This document shows positions 7,595-63,190 of a stretch of 64,000 bases of DNA, one piece after another (within the stretch, counting starts at the first letter, position 1; each line of letters starts with the position of its first letter). The stretch comes from Carallia brachiata. Taxonomy: Eukaryota; Streptophyta; Magnoliopsida; Malpighiales; Rhizophoraceae. Location: positions 186,001-250,000 of the forward strand of contig JADCRB010000161.1 in NCBI GenBank assembly GCA_021464245.1, read 5' to 3'. A program made the translations under genes and the position numbers. The notes beneath the pieces were generated by a model. It worked only from the letters and a program-made list of their open reading frames with translations, was not told the DNA's origin and ran no database searches.

Positions 7595-8250
7595 TGTAAA
7601 GCGTAAATTTCGAGCCTAAAACAATTAAACTCGAAAATACAAAAATAAATTACAAATAAAAATTTAAAAATAAAAGAAAATTTACGTGGGGTCGATCTCC
7701 GTAGATCCTCCGATTAGTGTTCCTTTTTTGACTCCGTCAAGGGCTGCACGAGCTTGATCTTGACAGAAATAAATTCCACAGATTTTTCTTGAACTAGGTA
7801 GACTGAAACCGGATCTGATTTGGACGTTTTGACTACGGTTAAGAACCGTAGAGACCAGATCTGAGCCGATCTGACTTAATTTCACCGAGAGTCGAAGAGA
7901 CTTGTTCTCGGATGAGCTGCCTGGATTTTGCTGAGGGCCGTATGAGGCTTAATCCCAGCCGGATTTGTAGTAATTTGATATTTTTAACTCTATATTCTCA
8001 TAAATTCAGATCTAGAACGATCCAAGAATATAAATTTAAAAATAACTTTAGAAATGGAAACAGCAAATTTTTTGGGCCTTACCCCTGAAATATCTCTCAA
8101 AACGGAGTTAGGAGAGTATACTGCTAAGTAAAAGCACGTAAGAAAAGGAGAAATTTTCTTGAGAGATTTTCAAATTTTCTTTTTCTCTCAAATTCTCTGA
8201 ATTTTTCTGTTACAGATTTGCTGAATGTATTTGAACTGGGGGGCAGGGGC

Positions 8251-8259
8251 CTATTTATA
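8251..8259 (-). promoter_or_regulatory. LTR TATA box (3' LTR)
   Basis: Sense-strand TATAAATAG within CCCTATAAATAGG. The same box is at 16780-16788 in the other LTR, at the junction between shared and unshared LTR sequence. That is where a U3 promoter is expected. Confidence 0.65.
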
Positions 8260-8321
8260 GGGTTCCTTTCCCATGTGAACATCACATGGGAAAGGAATCT
8301 TTTTTCCTTTAATTTTTCTTT

Positions 8322-8358
8322 GGCCGGCGTTGCCAATTCAAAATTGGCAACGCCGGCC
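8322..8358. repeat. Perfect 17-bp inverted repeat, 3-nt loop
   Basis: GGCCGGCGTTGCCAATT, then CAA, then its exact reverse complement. It is GC-rich inside AT-rich DNA and is found only in this LTR's U3. Confidence 0.95.
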
Positions 8359-8443
8359 ATTGAATTCAATGGCAATTGAATTCATTGAATTCAATGGCAA
8401 TTGAATTCATTGAATTCAATGGCCATTGAATTCAACGAATTCA
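8359..8443. repeat. GAATTC-centred palindrome array in U3
   Basis: Successive ATTGAATTCAATGG-type units repeat six to seven times with small variations (caattgaattcattgaatt). Each unit is itself palindromic. The array follows the hairpin directly and ends in the oligo(T) run at 8444-8471. Confidence 0.85.
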
Positions 8444-8484
8444 TTTTTTTTTTTTTTTTTTTTTTTTTTTTCTTTCTGTTTACA

Positions 8485-8500
8485 AATGCCCCCACTTCAA
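8485..8500 (-). other. Polypurine tract
   Basis: On the sense strand GAAGTGGGGGCATT lies immediately before the 3' LTR start (TGTAAACAG). This is the place and composition expected for the plus-strand primer. It fixes the element's orientation as - strand. Confidence 0.75.
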
Positions 8501-9381: not shown

Positions 9382-10011
9382 CTAGCGGGGCCCGAGGCGC
9401 AGCTCCAAGTCAAGCTCGACCTCGTCTGGTGGGCCGATGATGTTGACGTCGACGTCGACGTCGACGTCGCTTTCCAGCTGGTTGATGCTGTCGGAATATT
9501 CTGGAAAGAGAGGCAAAGTTTCACCGGAATAACTCCTTTCTGCTAGAAAAATTCCTCCTAGACTTAAGTATCTAGGAGGGATGAACCCTTGGCTGACTCC
9601 GTAAGACCACCAGGACCAGCGTGCATGCTCCCATGGGCTACGGCTTTGATGAACATACCGTGGAGAGACTATTGCGGTGGAAGAACTCGGACCTGCTTCA
9701 TTTGACGGCGAAGTTGTACTGGTGGGATCTACCATCGGAACAGCAGACTGTTCTTTGGAAAAATCAGCTCTCAGTGCTGGTTTCTTCCTGCTTCTCCGAT
9801 TCTGGAACCAATAAAACACATTTTTTCCTTCGATTGCCCCGAGTGGGCGCAATCGTGAGACAAGTTGGTAAATCTGAGATGCATTAGGCATAATACCTCC
9901 ATTGTTGTGGAAGACTTCCTCTAGAATTTGCAGTTGCGCCATGGTTGGTTGCCACCTTGTGCGGGGTGACCTTTCTTCTCCCTTGTCTTGAGGTTCTGCA
10001 ACTGGTTCCAT
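9382..10011 (-). CDS. WOX: Retrotransposon-borne WUSCHEL-related homeobox (WOX) protein
   Basis: An uninterrupted 209-aa frame. Residues about 16-78 form a WUS-type homeodomain: RTRW near the start, GAIEGKNVFYWFQN in helix 3, then RRSRKKP, which resembles the NRRSR form of WOX9/11/12-like proteins. Residues 165-170 are TLPLFP, the WUS box. Residues 200-206 (LDLELRL) give an EAR-like repressor motif at the C-terminus. Residues 182-189 are a DV repeat encoded by tandem GACGTC. WOX factors are nuclear DNA-binding regulators of stem-cell and meristem fate; the three motifs together fit the WUS clade. The gene is intronless although WUS-family genes normally have introns, is in the sense of pol, and lies between integrase and the polypurine tract. 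Unlike pol it shows no frame break. ATG 10009-10011 sits in a good context (AAAGATGG). Whether it is expressed is unknown. Confidence 0.88.
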   Translation of the reverse strand: MEPVAEPQDKGEERSPRTRWQPTMAQLQILEEVFHNNGGIMPNASQIYQLVSRLRPLGAIEGKNVFYWFQNRRSRKKPALRADFSKEQSAVPMVDPTSTTSPSNEAGPSSSTAIVSPRYVHQSRSPWEHARWSWWSYGVSQGFIPPRYLSLGGIFLAERSYSGETLPLFPEYSDSINQLESDVDVDVDVNIIGPPDEVELDLELRLGPR

Positions 10012-10097: not shown

Positions 10098-10140
10098 GCT
10101 TTTATATTTTTGGGCCGTTCACAGTTTATACTCATGCGGG
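10098..10140 (-). promoter_or_regulatory. TATA boxes upstream of WOX
   Basis: On the - strand AATATAAAAGC lies about 90 nt before the WOX ATG, followed by a 5'UTR-like stretch rich in C and A. Slightly further upstream GCATGAGTATAAACTG matches the core of the tandem units at 14139-14360 (GCACGAGTATAAAAGG). This suggests that the gene carries its own promoter-like region. Confidence 0.5.
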
Positions 10141-10400
10141 CCAGGAGTTGGATTGGATTTTGAACCTGGTTTCTGGACTGTGTTTAGAACTTGGAATTTT
10201 TTGGGTTTTGGGCTTTGAATTGAATTTGGGTTGATTTGGATTTGGGTTTTTGGATCGAGTGTTTGGGTTTGGACTTTTGGATTTGGGTTGAGTGTTTGGG
10301 TTTTGGACTTAAGTTTTGTGTTTTCTGAATTGGGCTCAAGTGTTTGGGTTTGGATTTTTGGGTTTGGATTTTCGCTTGGACTTTCAGATCGGGACTTCCG

Positions 10401-10437
<37 letters not shown>

Positions 10438-10452
10438 ATTTTTTGATTTTTT

Positions 10453-10500
<48 letters not shown>

Positions 10501-10509
10501 CAAACATAT
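10141..10509 (-). repeat. Low-complexity spacer and long oligo(T) tract
   Basis: 10165-10400 is a degenerate TTTGGGTTTGGA-type repeat. 10404-10500 is almost pure T (A in the sense strand), broken only by a few GA bases. A similar pair (GGATTTGGATTTGG repeat plus T-tract) occurs at 14520-14990, so the whole spacer seems to be duplicated in the element. Confidence 0.8.
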
Positions 10510-11810
10510 TTACACATAATATTGTTTCAGAAATTTACCATTGATTGGGCCGATTCGGACGCCTTCTTGGTCTGACAGCATGTAAGCGTTGTGAGTGTAG
10601 GCCTCCTGCACTAAGTATGGCCCGTCCCATTTGGAAGTAAGCTTGTCACCAGGCCGATGCTTCATGTTGATGGGCCGTCGCACTGCAAGAACAAGGTCTC
10701 CAACTTGAAAAGATCGAGGACGGACCCTGCGGTTGAACGTGTTGGTGAGCCGGGCTTGGTAGCACTCAAGTTGCTGTTGTGCTTCGAGCCTCCTTTCATC
10801 GAGAGCTTCTAACTCATCCAGACGTAGGCGAGCATTCTCCTCCTGTGTGAGTCCTTCCAGAACAGCCATGCGCAGGGATGGAATCTGTGTTTCCAACGGC
10901 AGTATTGCTTCGACACCGTAGACAAGTGAGTATGGCGTCGCCTGTGTTGGAGTCCGGTAAGTTGTACGATACGCCCATAATGCCTCCGGAATTCTGTCAT
11001 GCCAATCTCTTTTGGATTTAGAGACTACCTTCGCAACAGGTTGCATAAGGTCTTGTTGAATGCTTCAGCCAAGCCATTTGCTGGGGCATTGTACATGGAT
11101 GACTTGTACTGCTTGAACTTGAACTTCTCGCAGAGCTTGTCGATCAAGCTGTTGTAGAACTGCTTGCCATTATCAGTGATGATGAATCGAGGGACTCCAT
11201 AGCGATAGATCAGCTGAGTCCGGATGAAATTGGCAACATGCTCCTTCTTTACCTCTCTAAGTGGAATGGCTTCAGCCCATTTTGAGAAGTAGTCGGTTGC
11301 TGCGAGGATGTACAGGTGACCTAGGGATGACTTTGGCAAGGGCCCCACTAAGTCGAGACCCCAAGCTTCAAAGGGCCAGGATGAGACAGTTGGATGCAGT
11401 GGCTCCGGTGGTTGATGTATGTAATTCGCATGAAATTGACAAGCTTGACAGGTTTTAGCAAACTCAATTGAATCACGTACCATGGTTGGCCAGTAGTATC
11501 CCATCCTTCTGAGCTGGAAGTGCAACTTAGGCCCTGATTGATGTCCGCCACAAACACCAGAATGTGCTTCAGTGAGAGCCTGTTTTGCCTCTTCATTGGC
11601 TAGGCAGCGAAGTAGAACTCCATCAAAAGACCTTCGATACAGAGCATCCTTGAGATATATGAAGCGGGGAGCTCGTCGTTGAATTTCTGTCTTATGACGA
11701 CGATCTTCGGGCAGCTTCCCGTGCTGTAGGTAGTCAATGATTGGTTGACGCCAGTCCTCGTCCTCCGCGAGACGTACAGATACAGTTGGCTGCTGTAGTT
11801 TCTTCATCAT
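10510..11810 (-). CDS. Integrase part of pol, frame-broken
   Basis: Two overlapping open frames (11025-11810, 261 codons; 10510-11046, 178 codons) form one integrase. In order it has an HHCC zinc domain (GVCGGHQSGPK… then CQACQFHAN), the catalytic core with DLVGPLP and ITDNGKQF, and a C-terminal domain with KWDGPYLV. Integrase inserts the cDNA into the chromosome. The frame changes near 11030, where a short A run on the sense strand appears one base short and the protein resumes in the next frame without lost residues. The C-terminus ends just before the oligo(A) tract, and the WOX gene follows about 500 nt later. Confidence 0.88.
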
Positions 11811-12195
11811 CCTTTTGTGGCACTATCCATTTCTGGCATACGGCAACAACTGTAGCCTGGATTTCTGACTTTGCAAGAGAAGTGGCCAGGTTAGCCAACG
11901 CGTCTGCCTGAGTGTTTTCTCGTCGAGGCACATGCTCCAAGGTGATGCTTTCAAATTCATCCATTAGCTGTCGAGCAAGTTGATGGTAAGGTGCAAGGTC
12001 CTCTTTCTTCACATCATACAATCCTGTAAGTTGGTTGATGACGAGCTGGGAATCTCCATGGACTTCTATAGTTGGAATCTTCATATCGACAGCCATTTGA
12101 AGACCAATGATCAAAGCCTGGTATTCAGCAACATTATTTGAACATAACTCACCGAGATGATAGCATATGGTAGTATTTGTCGTGAGGAGTGACAA
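11734..12195 (-). CDS. Second (archaeal-type) RNase H of pol
   Basis: A 153-codon frame with NNVAEYQALI, IEVHGDSQLVINQL and RRENTQADALANLA. These are the aRNH motifs (E, D and terminal D within NTQADALA). Its place after the ordinary RNaseH and before integrase is typical of Tat/Ogre-group elements, where it is thought to be an acquired domain. It is out of frame with both neighbours (breaks near 12165 and 11815), while sequence similarity runs across the junctions. Confidence 0.85.
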   Translation of the reverse strand: MSLLTTNTTICYHLGELCSNNVAEYQALIIGLQMAVDMKIPTIEVHGDSQLVINQLTGLYDVKKEDLAPYHQLARQLMDEFESITLEHVPRRENTQADALANLATSLAKSEIQATVVAVCQKWIVPQKDDEETTAANCICTSRGGRGLASTNH

Positions 12196-12198
12196 ACA

Positions 12199-13835
12199 CT
12201 ATACCGGCACCAGCACCATCACGCCTTGCTGCACCATCAAAGAACATCGTCCATGGTGGCAGTGTCTCAATGTAAAAGACCTCTTCATCTGGAAGATCAT
12301 CTGTGAACTCCCAATCGATGGGATAGGGTGATCTGCAAGGAAGTCTGCTAGAGCTTGTCCTTTGACTGCTTTTTGAGGCACATAGACAATGTCGTAGCTT
12401 TGTAGGATTACTGCCCACTTGGCAAGTCGTCCTGACAAGATTGGTCTAGATAAGATATATTTGACAGGATCAGCTCTGGCAATGAGACGTACCGTGTGAG
12501 CCTGCATGTAGTGCCTTAGCTTGTCAATGGCAAAGAACAGTGCTAGACATGTCTTTTCAATGGGCGAATAACTCAGTTCCGGACCGTTTAGTGTTCTGCT
12601 CAAGTAATACAGGGCAACTTCCTTTCCCTGCTCGTTTTCCTGTGCAAGCAAGGCTCCCAAAGATCTTTCCTGCGCTGCAATGTAGAGAATCAACGACTTT
12701 CCTTGAATTGGAGCTCCCAGGACTGGTGGATTGGAAAGGTACTTCTTTATGCTCTCAAAGGCTTTGCTGCAAGCTTCGTCCCACTCGAAGTTGACATCCT
12801 TCTTCATCAACCGATGGAAAGGTTGACATCTCCCAGCTAAATTGGAGATGAAACGGCGAATGTAAGCCAGCTTTCCTTGTAGACTTCGCAGCTCGTGCAG
12901 GTTTTTAGGTTCAGGCATCTTTTGAATTGCCTCAACCTTTGACTGATCAACTTCGATTCCACGATGGCGCACCACGAACCCAAGAAACTTTCCTGATGTG
13001 ACACCGAATGCGCACTTGAGAGGGTTCATTTTGAGCTGATGCCTCCGAAGTCTTTCGAACACTGTCTTGAGATCCTCGAGGTGGTCTTTGCGCTTCTTAG
13101 TCTTTACAACTAAGTCATCAACATAACATTCTACAATCTTGTGCAGCATGTCATCAAAAATTTTTTGCATAGCACGTTGATAAGTGGCGCCAGCATTTTT
13201 TAATCCAAACGGCATAACTTTGTAGCAGTATATACCTTTTGGGGTGCGGAATGCTGTCAACTCCTCGTCTTTTGGTGCCATTCTGATTTGGTTATAGCCT
13301 GAAGAACCATCCATGAAAGACAATGCTTCGTGACCCGTTGTTGCATCGACTGTGATCTCCGTTATGGGCAACGGAAAGTCATCTTTCGGGCAGGCCTTGT
13401 TAAGATCTCGAAAATCAACACATACCCTCAACTGTCCATTCTTCTTTCTTACCGGGACAATGTTGGCAATCCACGTTGGGTAGGTGACCTCTCGGATGAA
13501 GCCGCATTGATCAGCTTGTTCACCTCCTCCTCGATTTGTGGAATGAGTTCCGGGCGGAACCGTCGTTGTGGCTGCTTGACAGAACGGACACCCTTCTTTA
13601 CTGCTAGACGATGCACCGCAATTTTTGGGTCAAGTCCAGGCATTTCTTTGTAACTCCATGCGAACACGTCCCTGTATTGACTTAATACCTGAACATATTC
13701 TTGCTCTTCTTCTGCAGTAAGTAAAGCACTTACAAATGTAGGTCGAGGATCTTCCGGAGAGCCAAGATTGACCTCCTTGAGTTCATCAACAGTTGCTTGG
13801 CCACCATCTTCAAGTTCCGGGGGAGCCTCCTTCAC
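12199..13835 (-). CDS. Reverse transcriptase and RNase H of pol, frame-broken
   Basis: Open frames 13449-13835 and 12199-13431 cover the N-terminal lead (VFAWSYKEMPGLDP), the RT fingers (VCVDFRDLNKACPKDDFPLP), the palm with the catalytic YVDDLVV, the thumb (KFLGFVVRHRGIEV), and the ordinary RNaseH (LYIAAQERSLGALL … LRHYMQAH). RT copies the element RNA into cDNA. Breaks near 13505 and 12321 fall at short G or C runs that look one base short. Around them the conserved sequence simply continues in another frame. No protease or gag is fused upstream. Confidence 0.9.
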
Positions 13836-14138
13836 TTCACCATCTGATGAGTCGAATCAGCCTCCTCGCTAATTGTGACATGAAATGCAGAACCTCTGAC
13901 TTCACCTTCTTTGTTTGACTGGATAAGCCTGTCTTCGAAGCACTTCTGACTCGGGTTGGGTATGTCCTTCCTCTATTTAAGATTAGTACAATAAAAAAAA
14001 GGGAAAGGGGGCTAACCTTCTAGACGTCGTGACTTCGACACATAGTGTAGGAATGGATGGTGCTTGCAGAGAGCCTCCTACAGGCAAAGTTCGGCAGGCT
14101 GTGGCTGCTTCTCACCTGTTAGGGTCTGCATTGTATTG
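13836..14138 (-). other. Remnant upstream of RT; gag-protease missing
   Basis: On the - strand 13836-13990 still encodes a short pol-like lead (FEDRLIQSNKEG) in a changing frame. Beyond that no protease active site or zinc knuckle is found. The sequence passes directly into the TATA-bearing tandem array. This is where gag-PR would be expected. Confidence 0.55.
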
Positions 14139-14360
14139 TCGCCTTTTATACTCGTGCGAGGCAGGAGTGTTGAATTGTGGTGTCGCCTTTTATGCTCGTG
14201 CGAGGCAGGAGCGTTGAACTGTGATGTCGCCTTTTATACTCGTGCGAGACAGGAGTGTTGAACTGTGATGGATTGATTATCGCCTTTTATACTCGTGCGA
14301 GGCAGGAGTGTTGAATTGTGGAGCTGTTCGCCTTTTATACTCGTGCGAGACAGGAGTATT
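14139..14360 (-). repeat. Five tandem ~45-bp units, each with a TATA box
   Basis: The core TCGCACGAGTATAAAAGGCG (sense) or a one-base variant starts at about 14141, 14186, 14228, 14281 and 14329. Each copy is preceded by a CAACACTCCTGC-type segment. Four units have TATAAAAGG and one has CATAAAAGG. A single diverged unit lies upstream of the WOX gene. Unit spacing is 42-53 bp. Confidence 0.9.
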
Positions 14361-14995: not shown

Positions 14996-15240
14996 GTAGT
15001 TCTGAAATTTACCTGCTTTATTGGGTCAGGTCGAAATGCATTTCTGACCTGATAACATGGAAGCATTTTTTTTTGAACTAGACATGACCCCTCCCACTTG
15101 GAAATGAGCTTGTGGCTGAGTCGGTACTCTCGTCCTTCTGTTGGTCCGATTGGCTAAAAATGTGCCCCAAATCGAGATGATTGAGGACGATCTTCGCGGT
15201 TGACTGCATCAGCGGGTTGGGCTTGGTGAAGCCCTTTGTT
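14996..15240 (-). pseudogene. Degraded second copy of the integrase C-terminal end
   Basis: Read on the - strand, this block aligns by eye with 10520-10750. In both, an acidic/basic stretch (NRxxRPxS) is followed by a conserved 'cccacttggaaatgagcttgt'-like segment, a 'catgttatcaggtcag'-like segment, and a final 'ggtaaatttcagaac' before the oligo(A) tract. The reading frame is destroyed. It shows that the 3' part of pol plus its spacer exists twice, once in the usual place and once where gag-PR should be. Confidence 0.7.
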
Positions 15241-16079: not shown

Positions 16080-16105
16080 AGGAACAAGAGATGGGAGGTG
16101 AAGTG

Positions 16106-16128
16106 TCCCACCGAGCGTGCCAAAAATT
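16106..16128 (-). other. Primer-binding-like site
   Basis: On the sense strand the 5' LTR ends CGCTTTACA. After a short AAATTTT spacer follows TTGGCACGCTCGGTGGGACA. It begins with TGG, as expected for a tRNA CCA end. I do not assign the tRNA. Confidence 0.55.
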
Positions 16129-16779
16129 TGTAAAGCGTAAATTTCGAGTCTAAAACAATTAAACTCGAAAATACAAAAATAAATTACAAATAAAATTTAA
16201 ATAAAAGAAAATTTACGTGGGGTCGATCTCCGTAGATCCTCCGATTAGTGTTCCTTTTTTGACTCCGTCAAGGGCTGCACGAGCTTGATCTGACAGAAAT
16301 AATTCCACAGCTTTTTCTTGAACTGGGTAGACTGAAACCGGATCTGATTTGGACGTTTTGACTACGGTTAAGAACCGCAGAGACCTGATCTGAGCCGATC
16401 TGGCTTAATTTCACCGAGGGTCGAAGAGACTTGTTCTCGGATGAGCTGCCTGGATTTTGCTGAGGGCCGTATGAGGCTTAATCCCAGCCGGATTTGTAGT
16501 AATTTGATATTTTTAACTCTATATTCTCAGAAATTCAGATCTAGAACGATCCAGAATATAAATTTAAAAATAACTTTAGAAATGGAAACAGCAAATTTTT
16601 TGGGCTTACCCCTGAAATATCTCTCAAAACGGAGTTAGGAGAGTATACTGCTAAGTAAAGCACGTAAGAAAAGGAGAAATTTTCTTGAGAGATTTTCAAA
16701 ATTTTCTTTTTCTCTCAAATTCTCTGAATTTTTCTGTTTACAGATTTGCTGAATGTGTTTTGAACTGAGGGGCATGGGC

Positions 16780-16788
16780 CTATTTATA
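16780..16788 (-). promoter_or_regulatory. LTR TATA box (5' LTR)
   Basis: Sense-strand TATAAATAG, same context as in the other LTR. It would drive transcription of the element toward pol and WOX. Confidence 0.65.
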
Positions 16789-16799
16789 GGGTTTCCCCT

Positions 16800-17000
16800 C
16801 TCGTGTGAAAGCACGCGTGTGAAAGGCATAAGTCGACTTTTCCGTGTGAAAGGCATAAGTTGACTTTTCCGTGTGAAAGCACGCGTGAGAAAGGAATAAG
16901 TCGACTTTTCTGACTTTTCCGTGTGAAAGCATGCGTGAGAAAGGAATAAGTCGACTTTTCCGTGTGAAAGCACACATGCGAAAGGAATAAGTCGACTATT

Positions 17001-17004
<4 letters not shown>
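16800..17004. repeat. ~40-bp tandem units in U3 of 5' LTR
   Basis: Five units built from GTGTGAAAGCACGCGTG, a GAAAGGAATA or GAAAGGCATA segment, and AAGTCGACTTTTCC. GTCGAC is a palindrome in most units. The sequence is absent from the other LTR. Confidence 0.85.
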
Positions 17005-17061
<57 letters not shown>

Positions 17062-30050: not shown

Positions 30051-30548
30051 TAGGATATTCATTTTATAAGTTCTAAATTTTTATAATTTTTTTATATATA
30101 AATTTTAAATTTTTTTAAATTTTATTTGAATTTTAAATTTTTTAATTTCGTACGAAATTAGTCCATTTGTAAATGAAAAGTGATCAATCTATTAAAAAAA
30201 TAATTTTGAACTTCCAAAAATTATTTGAAAAAAGGTGAAATATATTAATTAAAAATTTTTTCTATCAAAAAATATGTACTTTGTATATTTAATTCGTATA
30301 TTTTATTGATTAAAAAATATTTTATATGCATATTTATTGATAAAAAATTATTTATTTATTTATTTGATTTTTTTTAATAATTTTCATTAATCTAAACTCA
30401 TTTATTAACAGATTGATCACTTTTTGTAAATAAAAGAATTAATTTAGTAAAAAATTAAAAAGTTTAGAAGTCAAATGAAATATTAAAAAAGTTTAAAATT
30501 TATATATAAAAAAATGTAAAAATTTGGGACAAAAAAATTATATTTTCC
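30051..30548. repeat. MITE-like foldback element, copy B
   Basis: About 500 bp of the same length and internal order as copy A (1576-2074): 'gaaattagtcca…aaaagtgatcaat…' on the left and '…gattgatcactttttgtaaat…' on the right. Ends TAGGATATTC / …ATATTTTCC are inverted. Flanking GTTTATAAG (30042-30050) and GTTTATAGG (30549-30557) look like a 9-bp target duplication with one mismatch, which points to a Mutator-like mobiliser. Confidence 0.7.
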
Positions 30549-61776: not shown

Positions 61777-62114
61777 ATCAGTCACTAACCAGTATTGCTG
61801 TAAATTTTTTTTAAACCCAAAAAATTATCATACAATTTGGCTTAAAACAGTAAAAACTGAAAATTGTAGACTTGATTTCTATGGGAAATTTTTCATTGTT
61901 TTGGTCTTGGATTTCTACGAGAAATTAAGTGGCGGACCATTGCCAATCAGTCACTAACCAGTATTGCTGTAAATTTTTTTTAAACCCAAAAAATTATCAT
62001 ACAATTTGGCTTAAAACAGTAAAAACTGAAAATTGTAGACTTGATTTCTATGGGAAATTTTTCATTGTTTTGGTCTTGGATTTCTACGAGAAATTAAGTG
62101 GCGGACCATTGCCA
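61777..62114. repeat. Perfect two-copy 169-bp tandem duplication
   Basis: Copy 1 (61777-61945) and copy 2 (61946-62114) start ATCAGTCACTAACCAGTATT and end GGACCATTGCCA. I see no difference between them, so the duplication is very recent or an assembly artefact. Confidence 0.92.
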
Positions 62115-63190
62115 ATGCTAGTACGTAAGCTGGGCTTCATGTTCACAGATGGTGGGCTAATTTAATGATCTGGGCTGGATTGCTTTATTTTATTGTACGG
62201 GCCCTCATCGAGAACAAATATTTGAGATTTGGATTAATAAGCTTATCAGAAGCCCAATTTGCCAGATAGTTTTCAATTGTCTTGACCCAAACCAAAAGGG
62301 TCCATTCTAGGAAAGTGTTGCTTTCTACTGAATTGTCAATTTCACAATCAAATGTCATTAACCACAAGATCTAGTAGTAGAATACCTGAAATTTAATTTT
62401 AAGTCTAGGGTTTCCTTAATCTCTACAATTAAAAAAAAAAAAAATCACAATCAAATGCCATGTTTGGAAAGAAGGATTGGAAGAAGCTGCACACAAAGCC
62501 AACAGTGCTAGAGTGGCCTGACACCTCCTCTTAGGAACAACCTCAACATGGTTCCTATATGGATTAACTAAGAACTTTTTTTGCCAAACCACTTTCTATA
62601 AAGCACCAAACTATCTATTAACAAAAATTTCTTTGGCACTTTTGTTGGAGTCATATGCTCAATTACTTGCATTTTGATGATCTGTAAACATGGAAGCAAA
62701 GCAAATGGCAAAAGATAAAAGTTCGTGAATGGTTGAACTTATTTTCATTGTTTTGTCAGGGTGGGATGAACCCAACAAACATAAGAAATATCTTAAAAAA
62801 CCCTTAGCAGACACCCTGATACTTAAAAATTTAAATCTCTGCCTTTACGTTTTAGATTATAATTTTAAGGAGGGAGTATGGGGTTTATGAGAATAAGAAA
62901 AAGTTATCTTTGGCTAGATAAACTAATTGCAAACTCACACTCGATACACATGCTTCAGAAGAAATTATTCAATTGGAGAGTATTTTTCTTTTTGGAACAG
63001 TAAGATTTCCATGTGTTTCATTGTTGCTTTGGCAATGTTCGCAAACTATAATGCAGCTTTACCTGCAGCAACAGATTGTTTAAGGTGTCTTGTTCATGCT
63101 AACAGCCACAGATTTGTAACATAAATCTGACTAAATCATTAATAATACGTATAGAAACAAAGTTTCCAGGTTCAGGAACATGGTTCCTAG
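62115..63190. other. Spacer and 3' flank of the GH28 gene
   Basis: No gene supported. The 78-codon frame ending at 62165 simply spans the duplication, and that at 62927-63124 has no recognised motif. Confidence 0.5.

Follow-up and report, generated by a model that had tools for sequence, protein, structure and literature searches.

A WUSCHEL-type homeobox gene probably kept as an accessory gene by a Tat-clade Ty3/gypsy retrotransposon in Carallia brachiata

Introduction

Elements of the Tat clade of Ty3/gypsy retrotransposons carry extra open reading frames (eORF or aORF), which are often antisense and mostly of unrecognised origin (PMC11963269; PMC7264820); in one survey, 21.4% of eORF proteins matched a known domain. 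Described examples are ORF4 of Retand (Transposase_28), gene23 of maize Grande and the plant mobile domain (PMD) ORF of Ogre. An antisense TRP28 ORF lies between pol and the 3' LTR in 97% of clusters of the Retand lineage (PMC11963269), and the plant mobile domain eORF is found in 57% of elements of the Ogre lineage. For Grande gene23, a promoter of its own and a nuclear product have been reported (PMC7264820). The angiosperm Tat elements, Ogre and Retand, are marked by an additional RNase H (aRH) located between the RNase H and the integrase (PMC6317226). The function of the extra ORFs of plant LTR elements is an open question, partly because most of them have no recognisable origin.

Here we analyse a stretch of 64,000 nucleotides of the Carallia brachiata genome (the window), in which a reading frame encoding a WUSCHEL-type homeodomain (the WOX ORF) lies inside such an element. 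As with the Tat extra ORFs mentioned above, the carrier is an aRH-bearing Tat element and the ORF is located between pol and the 3' LTR throughout the copies checked; like Grande gene23, for which an own promoter is reported, it has a putative promoter of its own. It differs from them in its sense orientation, in its recognisable origin from a host transcription factor and in encoding a WUSCHEL-type homeodomain in place of TRP28 or PMD. The region between pol and the 3' LTR measures about 2.0 kb in the window copy, compared with 2.9-6.6 kb in the Retand survey. The sense env-like aORFs of Athila and Bagy2 and the eORF-3'F of SIRE occupy the same place downstream of pol in the same orientation, but are described as env-like or heterogeneous, whereas the WOX ORF encodes a predicted DNA-binding protein whose fold matches that of WUS. 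Transduced host genes, such as maize Bs1 and the captures in rice and sorghum, likewise constitute host-derived coding sequence within an LTR element. According to reviews, however, these sit in one or a few copies, whereas the WOX ORF was present in every one of the 61 copies checked, is old and is constrained on internal branches.

The literature searched, supplementary tables aside (the domain table of the 2019 survey, for instance), yielded no description of an eORF of the WOX, WUSCHEL or homeodomain type, and term searches within PMC11963269, PMC6317226, PMC10508981 and the 2026 capture review PMC13317346 returned none. Extra Tat ORFs are already known, and for one made from WUSCHEL no report was found. 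Both the origin and the likely biochemistry of this ORF are recognisable: it goes back to a master regulator of plant stem cells, for which the contacts with DNA have been described at atomic level, and this makes the question of function directly testable. We consider it probable that a Tat-clade Ty3/gypsy element captured a WUSCHEL-type gene of the host lineage long ago and has since retained it as a permanent accessory gene.

Results and Discussion

Organisation of the element

All features of the element lie on the minus strand of the window. The 5' LTR (16129..17060) is followed by the primer binding site TGGCACGCTCGGTGGGAC (16105..16122), called by its place and its TGG start, and the polypurine tract AAGTGGGGGCA (8487..8497) adjoins the 3' LTR (7595..8484). 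Between them, profile matches identify an ORF for reverse transcriptase and RNase H (12199..13431), an additional RNase H of the RVT_3 type (11734..12195; E 8.5e-24) and an integrase ORF with an H2C2 zinc finger and the rve core (11025..11810). An integrase C-terminus ORF (10510..11046), which matches PF24626 weakly and under its cut-off, is found upstream of the WOX ORF in the family. It is separated from the promoter-like block of the WOX ORF by a spacer containing a poly-A tract and CCAAACCC-type repeats (10149..10509). The position of the aRH between RNase H and integrase assigns the window element to the Tat clade. Its pol is spread over several reading frames. At the place of the antisense TRP28 ORF of Retand, between 8487 and 10510, the window copy has no plus-strand ORF of at least 150 aa.

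Scanning of six window ORFs revealed neither a gag capsid nor a protease domain. The corresponding place is occupied by an apparent integrase C-terminus remnant (HKLISKWEGSCLVQ...; 15000..15126), a poly-A tract and, behind the remnant, a tandem array of five TATA-bearing units (14130..14357) akin to the block that precedes the WOX ORF. We compared the upstream stretches of four copies (L079-L082), all of which belong to carriers of the WOX ORF (L002, L005, L037 and L029). One of them (L081) displays a gag domain (PF03732) ahead of pol and another (L079) has weak aspartyl-protease matches there, under their cut-offs, while L080 and L082 are collinear with the window and represent the same gag-less form. 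The WOX ORF is therefore present downstream of gag-bearing and gag-less forms of the element alike.

The two LTRs of the window copy are 96.1% identical in their U5-R part, but their U3 parts are unrelated, and no target-site duplication borders the copy (flanks AGAAA and ATTGT). The window copy thus lacks the matching LTRs and target-site duplication of a single intact insertion, and the unrelated U3 parts together with the missing duplication indicate a recombinant. Dating of this copy by its LTRs was rejected, as the two stem from different subfamilies.

Normal reverse transcription should yield two equal U3 parts. Yet this pair of differing U3 types recurs in another copy (L080 with L005), where they are 97.8% and 96.1% identical to their counterparts in the window; the 5' flank of this copy is unrelated to that of the window copy. 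The U3 part of the window 3' LTR (about 8280-8484) contains a 25-bp tandem repeat with TGAA/TTCA motifs; this repeat (8358-8443), which belongs to the U3 of one LTR subfamily, is rich in TGAATTCA and resembles WUS-type TGAA motifs.

Sequence and predicted fold of the WUSCHEL-type protein

The WOX ORF (9382..10011) is intronless and runs from an ATG at 10011 down to a TAG ending at 9382, encoding 209 aa. The homeodomain comprises residues 17-82, the WUS box TLPLFP residues 165-170 and the EAR-like end LDLELRL residues 200-206, the latter two being named according to the domain map in PMC7203112. A first-pass annotation of the DNA had described this ORF and its three motifs, and had placed it in sense to pol between the integrase and the polypurine tract. 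The description is borne out by the translation, by a match to the Pfam Homeodomain family (PF00046, E 2.3e-12) and by two PDB sequence matches, WUSCHEL (6ry3, E 2.7e-18) and STENOFOLIA (6wig, E 6.7e-16), which identify a WOX-type homeodomain; the location is equally confirmed, with the pol ORFs upstream on the same strand. In the AlphaFold model the homeodomain forms a block with a pLDDT of about 93-95, and the remainder of the protein is modelled as disordered. A Foldseek search with the modelled homeodomain returned the WUS homeodomain bound to TGAA DNA as the best PDB match.

The resemblance extends to features that distinguish WUS from its relatives. Where helix 1 ends, the element protein has the extra residue (Y54 in WUS) that is stated to be WUS-specific inside the WOX family (PMC7203112), as H instead of Y. 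The alignment with WUS is ungapped through the loop, where seven non-WUS WOX homeodomains of the host align with a one-residue gap. The base-reading residues of WUS, R38, Q89, N90 and R94 (PMC7203112), correspond to R19, Q70, N71 and R75 of the element protein. These are retained in 85, 83, 87 and 82 of 87 copies, respectively, and of 20 randomly drawn copies (see below) all have N71, 19 have Q70, 18 have R19 and 17 have R75, with two masked. The position of WUS S36 is taken by an arginine (R17) in 83 of the 87 copies. The S36R variant of WUS shows a monomer shift typical of TAAT binding, while its binding to TGAA is not disturbed (PMC7203112), and the element protein is accordingly predicted to bind both TGAA and TAAT. 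Outside the homeodomain, 56 of the 87 copies but just 4 of the 20 drawn at random have the exact WUS box; for the LDLEL.L end the counts are 78 of 87 and 18 of 20.

The element protein thus shares with WUSCHEL the extra helix-1 residue, the base-reading residues, the WUS box and the EAR-like end, and is distinguished from it by R17, a basic helix end (QNRRSRKK), the lack of introns, a short linker and its residence in an element. The product is most likely an element-encoded nuclear regulator.

The ORF is a mobile feature of the element family

The host genome (337.5 Mb in 164 contigs) was searched for further copies; the 2288 and 2183 candidates of the first look are not copy counts. At least 150 scored matches to the WOX ORF were obtained, with identities of 87-100%, of which 111 are stop-free inside, a proportion biased by the choice of the best-scoring matches. 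Among 37 further places listed, six represent the element ORF by DNA (L020, L021, L023, L031, L034 and L035), and the remaining 31, which match by the homeodomain only, are probable. Together with the 20 random copies described next, the element ORF is confirmed at a minimum of 176 places (150 + 6 + 20). Such recurrence across the host genome excludes a chance origin of the ORF.

A sample independent of the WOX sequence was obtained by way of the integrase C-terminus, which yielded 149 copies besides that of the window. By coordinates, 41 of these have a listed WOX match 317-935 nt downstream; by sequence, the ORF is present in all 20 copies drawn at random from the other 108. It is therefore found downstream of the integrase in 61/61 copies checked, out of 149. 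In the opposite direction, 57 of 67 copies picked by their WOX ORF have an integrase C-terminus of like orientation upstream, and a polypurine tract motif followed by the start of an LTR is found 720-972 nt past the ORF in 23 of the 27 copies with enough flank.

One copy on contig C113 (L082, L029 and L104) carries the WOX ORF and is bordered on both sides by ATAAT, a 5-bp target-site duplication. Its LTRs differ by no substitution in an aligned piece of 254 nt and by two in a piece of 727 nt, with 6 and 7 gap positions, respectively. A substitution rate of about 1.3e-8 per site per year gives this insertion an age on the order of 0.1 million years. Among seven copies derived from one burst, pairwise differences amount to 0.2-2.4% across about 2.6 kb. 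The WOX ORF moves together with the element, as the young copy bounded by LTRs and a target-site duplication demonstrates. The first-pass annotation had suggested a capture by a Ty3/gypsy element and had proposed a search for further elements with the ORF in the host genome; many were found, and the capture is supported both by the integrase-anchored copies and by the C113 insertion.

These data bear directly on the reading that the ORF is a host WOX locus hit by element insertions, which the same annotation had named among the findings that would overturn its claim, or a segmental duplication of such a locus. The mismatched U3 regions of the window copy and its missing target-site duplication speak in favour of it. 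Nevertheless, the ORF has a fixed position after the integrase, it occurs at far too many places, the host's own WUS genes sit elsewhere and differ greatly from it, and the complete C113 insertion refutes this reading unless that copy is misassembled. We consequently reject it as next to impossible.

Constraint on the protein

Selection was assessed by counting substitutions on a parsimony tree and comparing them with a context-matched random placement; all P values are uncorrected. A first test used the 67 copies picked by WOX protein similarity, a choice that favours conserved proteins, and its internal-branch ratio for the homeodomain (0.14) was replaced by the weaker integrase-based estimate. 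The main sample (n=33) was taken from the integrase list and consists of the 20 random copies and 13 others with known WOX loci, the window included; the two groups are represented out of proportion (20 of 108 and 13 of 42).

On the internal branches of this sample, 88 nonsynonymous, 62 synonymous and 0 stop substitutions were counted against expectations of 98.6, 45.1 and 6.3. The N/S ratio is 0.65 of neutral (P=0.003-0.009 in three runs) and the deficit of stops has a P of 0.001-0.002. When seven copies with a divergent homeodomain (type B, see below) are removed (n=26), the internal ratio is 0.55 overall (P=0.003), 0.58 in the N-terminus and linker (P=0.026) and 0.28 in the homeodomain (P=0.007), for which a value of 0.53 (P=0.024) is obtained when the type-B copies are retained. 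The C-terminal 47 residues, which contain the WUS box and the EAR-like end, show no constraint, with internal ratios of 0.93-1.11 (n=26: 0.93, P=0.48). The terminal branches do not deviate significantly from neutrality, either overall (0.88 for n=33, P=0.19; 0.89 for n=26) or by region (0.74-1.09 for n=26). When the same changes are read in the two wrong frames, the internal ratios are 1.66 and 1.52 for n=33 and 1.96 and 1.38 for n=26, and stops are as numerous as expected. Restricted to the 20 random copies, the test gives 0.57 for the homeodomain (P=0.048) and 0.65 overall (P=0.013); a single stop falls on an internal branch, where 5.3 are expected, and the homeodomain has a terminal ratio of 1.80. 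All 87 copies give an internal homeodomain ratio of 0.44 (P=0.003) and one internal stop against 11.4 expected. For comparison, the internal N/S of the integrase C-terminus, computed from 55 WOX-picked copies, is 0.15 of neutral. The WOX ORF therefore looks constrained while its lineage was active, although less than the integrase, and neutral after insertion. It seems to have been maintained by selection in those lineages that continued to transpose.

Five of the 20 random copies have neither a stop nor a frameshift, and one of these five lacks the ATG. Eight others (L083, L084, L087, L090, L091, L093, L095 and L097), whose DNA is 94.5-99.3% identical to that of the window, contain 4-10 frame-breaking indels each, mostly of one or two bases, and just one of the eight has an in-frame stop. 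These small indels look like uncorrected errors of the long-read assembly, and a broken frame in a single copy is for this reason weak evidence. The first-pass annotation had inferred selection from an open WOX ORF beside a broken pol and had suggested a comparison of nonsynonymous and synonymous changes among element copies. The comparison reveals purifying selection on the internal branches and no significant effect on the terminal ones, so that selection itself is supported by the integrase-based sample and the wrong-frame control. The argument from the broken pol does not carry it, given that constraint is stronger on the integrase C-terminus than on the WOX ORF, that few random WOX copies are intact and that many indels look like assembly errors.

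The same figures allow for a less functional history, in which a single capture rode along with a successful family, the residual constraint is that of a few master copies, and the protein is useless to the element. The unconstrained C-terminal motifs agree with it, as do the overall ratios of 0.55-0.65, which are much weaker than that of the integrase C-terminus, and the stop or frameshift in 15 of the 20 random copies; captured genes in one or a few copies are, moreover, known in plant elements (PMC7264820). A useless protein is difficult to reconcile with the complete lack of internal stops in the main sample (P=0.001), with the low type-A homeodomain ratio, or with wrong frames that show neither a low ratio nor a stop deficit. 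The presence of the ORF in each of the 61 copies checked and behind both gag-bearing and gag-less forms, and the retention of N71 and, for the most part, of Q70 and R75 (19/20 and 17/20, two masked) by both homeodomain versions, likewise speak against a mere passenger, which we regard as unlikely.

A second version of the homeodomain

The type-B homeodomain occurs in 7 of the 20 random copies (L085, L088, L092, L094, L096, L100 and L102). Its core (codons 31-92) is 81% identical to that of the window at the DNA level, and the flanks are 90-94% identical. In one pair of a type-A and a type-B copy, 19 codons of the stretch 17-92 differ nonsynonymously and 10 synonymously. N71 is kept by both versions. 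The pattern looks like a homeodomain core that was exchanged between element lineages.

A putative internal promoter

The sequence preceding the WOX ORF is strongly conserved. Among the 67 WOX-picked copies, 65 have GAGTATAAA at -122 to -114, within the best conserved block of the 220 nt upstream. In blocks of ten bases, conservation is 0.94-1.00 from -140 to -51, 0.92-0.98 from -50 to the ATG and 0.81-0.94 from -220 to -141. In the window this block (10100..10148), which precedes the ATG by 89-137 nt, contains ACTCCTGGCCCGCATGAGTATAAA at 10148-10125 followed by a second TATAAAA at 10106-10100. No ATG lies between the GAGTATAAA TATA and the start of the ORF in the window copy, and a transcript from that TATA would therefore have the WOX start codon as its first. 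The near-invariant block suggests a putative internal promoter, and the distance of about 7 kb between the ORF and the element's 5' end likewise points to a promoter of its own.

In the gag-less copies, a TATA unit (CTCCTG.C.CGCAYGAGYATAAA) is repeated in tandem, 5 times in the window, 4 times in L080 and 14 times in L082 (at 14130-14357 of the window and, in element orientation, at 5807-6020 of L080 and 5095-5800 of L082). These arrays are possibly amplified promoters. They also bring in the reading that nucleic acid was kept and not protein, the TATA-bearing block serving as a promoter inside the element or as a signal in its RNA, with an incidental ORF behind it. In favour of this reading, the unit lies within the best conserved upstream block and was amplified in three gag-less copies away from the WOX ORF. 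It would not account for constraint at the codon level and the absence of stops on internal branches, both confined to the true frame, nor for the retained homeodomain contact residues, and we deem it improbable.

Origin of the captured gene

The host has two WUS genes (C90:2365714-2367417 and C65:259892-261392), which are 97% identical over 60 homeodomain residues, with a pS of 0.16. Each of them matches Erythroxylum WUS in three separate pieces, consistent with a coding sequence split, as expected, by two introns in the linker. An ACC synthase ORF has its nearest matches in Erythroxylum (83%) and in Euphorbiaceae (80-82%). The element homeodomain is 53% identical to those of the host WUS genes over a 60-residue stretch, with a pN of 0.31 and a pS of 0.79-0.84, which is saturated. 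Because of this synonymous saturation the capture must be old, and it looks far older than the split between the C90 and C65 genes. The continuous ORF of the element, compared with the split host genes, fits a capture by way of spliced RNA.

In the homeodomain tree the end branch of the element measures 2.77 changes per column, and neither the donor clade nor a grouping with WUS is resolved. Two protein searches revealed no close relative of the element protein among the 120 listed of 423 and the 120 listed of 452 matches, a result that transposon-masked annotation could influence by hiding relatives. PF00046 is present in every match listed, and the majority bear the name WUSCHEL or hypothetical. 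Scans of IMG/VR with the WOX, integrase and reverse transcriptase ORFs found no relative. In a single genome, two ordinary WUS genes are thus accompanied by far more than a hundred WUS-like reading frames, of which some may be expressed.

A possible role in transposition

Our preferred explanation starts with an ancient capture of a WUSCHEL-type homeobox gene of the host lineage, most likely through its spliced mRNA, and its retention between integrase and polypurine tract as an accessory gene. Transcription of the gene would start from an internal TATA promoter of its own directly ahead of it, as the conserved block suggests. Its product may enter the nucleus and bind sites of the TGAA/TAAT type, and could there regulate the transcription of the element or a host cell state favouring transposition, for instance in stem cells or germ-line precursors. 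The unconstrained C-terminal 47 residues, the scarcity of the exact WUS box in the random copies, the small number of intact random copies, the divergence of type B, the weaker homeodomain constraint in the random copies alone and the limitation of the TGAA excess to one subfamily count against it, and the homeodomain tree does not place the donor.

A special case of this explanation is a device for the meristem niche, in which mimicry of WUS keeps cells stem-like so that new copies reach the germ line. The preserved WUS base-reading residues favour it, along with the EAR-like end found in most copies and the arginine at the S36 position, since S36R gave WUS the TAAT-type shift (PMC7203112). 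The WUS box, however, is poorly kept in the random copies, and we rate the device as rather unlikely. The fullest version, a domesticated WUSCHEL that is expressed from the internal promoter, binds TGAA as well as TAAT, activates the element and holds or targets the stem-cell state on the way to the germ line, is put forward tentatively, as a possibility that falls well short of probable. If true, it would be a plant counterpart of the accessory transactivators of retroviruses, built from a developmental regulator of the host, and the type-B homeodomain would be a shift in target preference.

Binding of the protein to the element's own LTR was considered as a family-wide feature and dropped, as the excess of TGAA/TTCA is limited to one subfamily. 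The U3 regions of six copies of the window subfamily (L001-L005 and L007) contain 11-15 such motifs against a Markov expectation of 4.8-6.9, and no clear excess was seen in the U3 of the other 17 readable copies.

Other repeats in the window

Elsewhere in the window, positions 61777-62116 constitute a perfect 171-bp tandem duplication. Two stretches of about 490 bp each (1579-2067 and 30053-30543) are 84% identical, and the second has self-complementary halves (75.6%), which gives it a MITE-like appearance.
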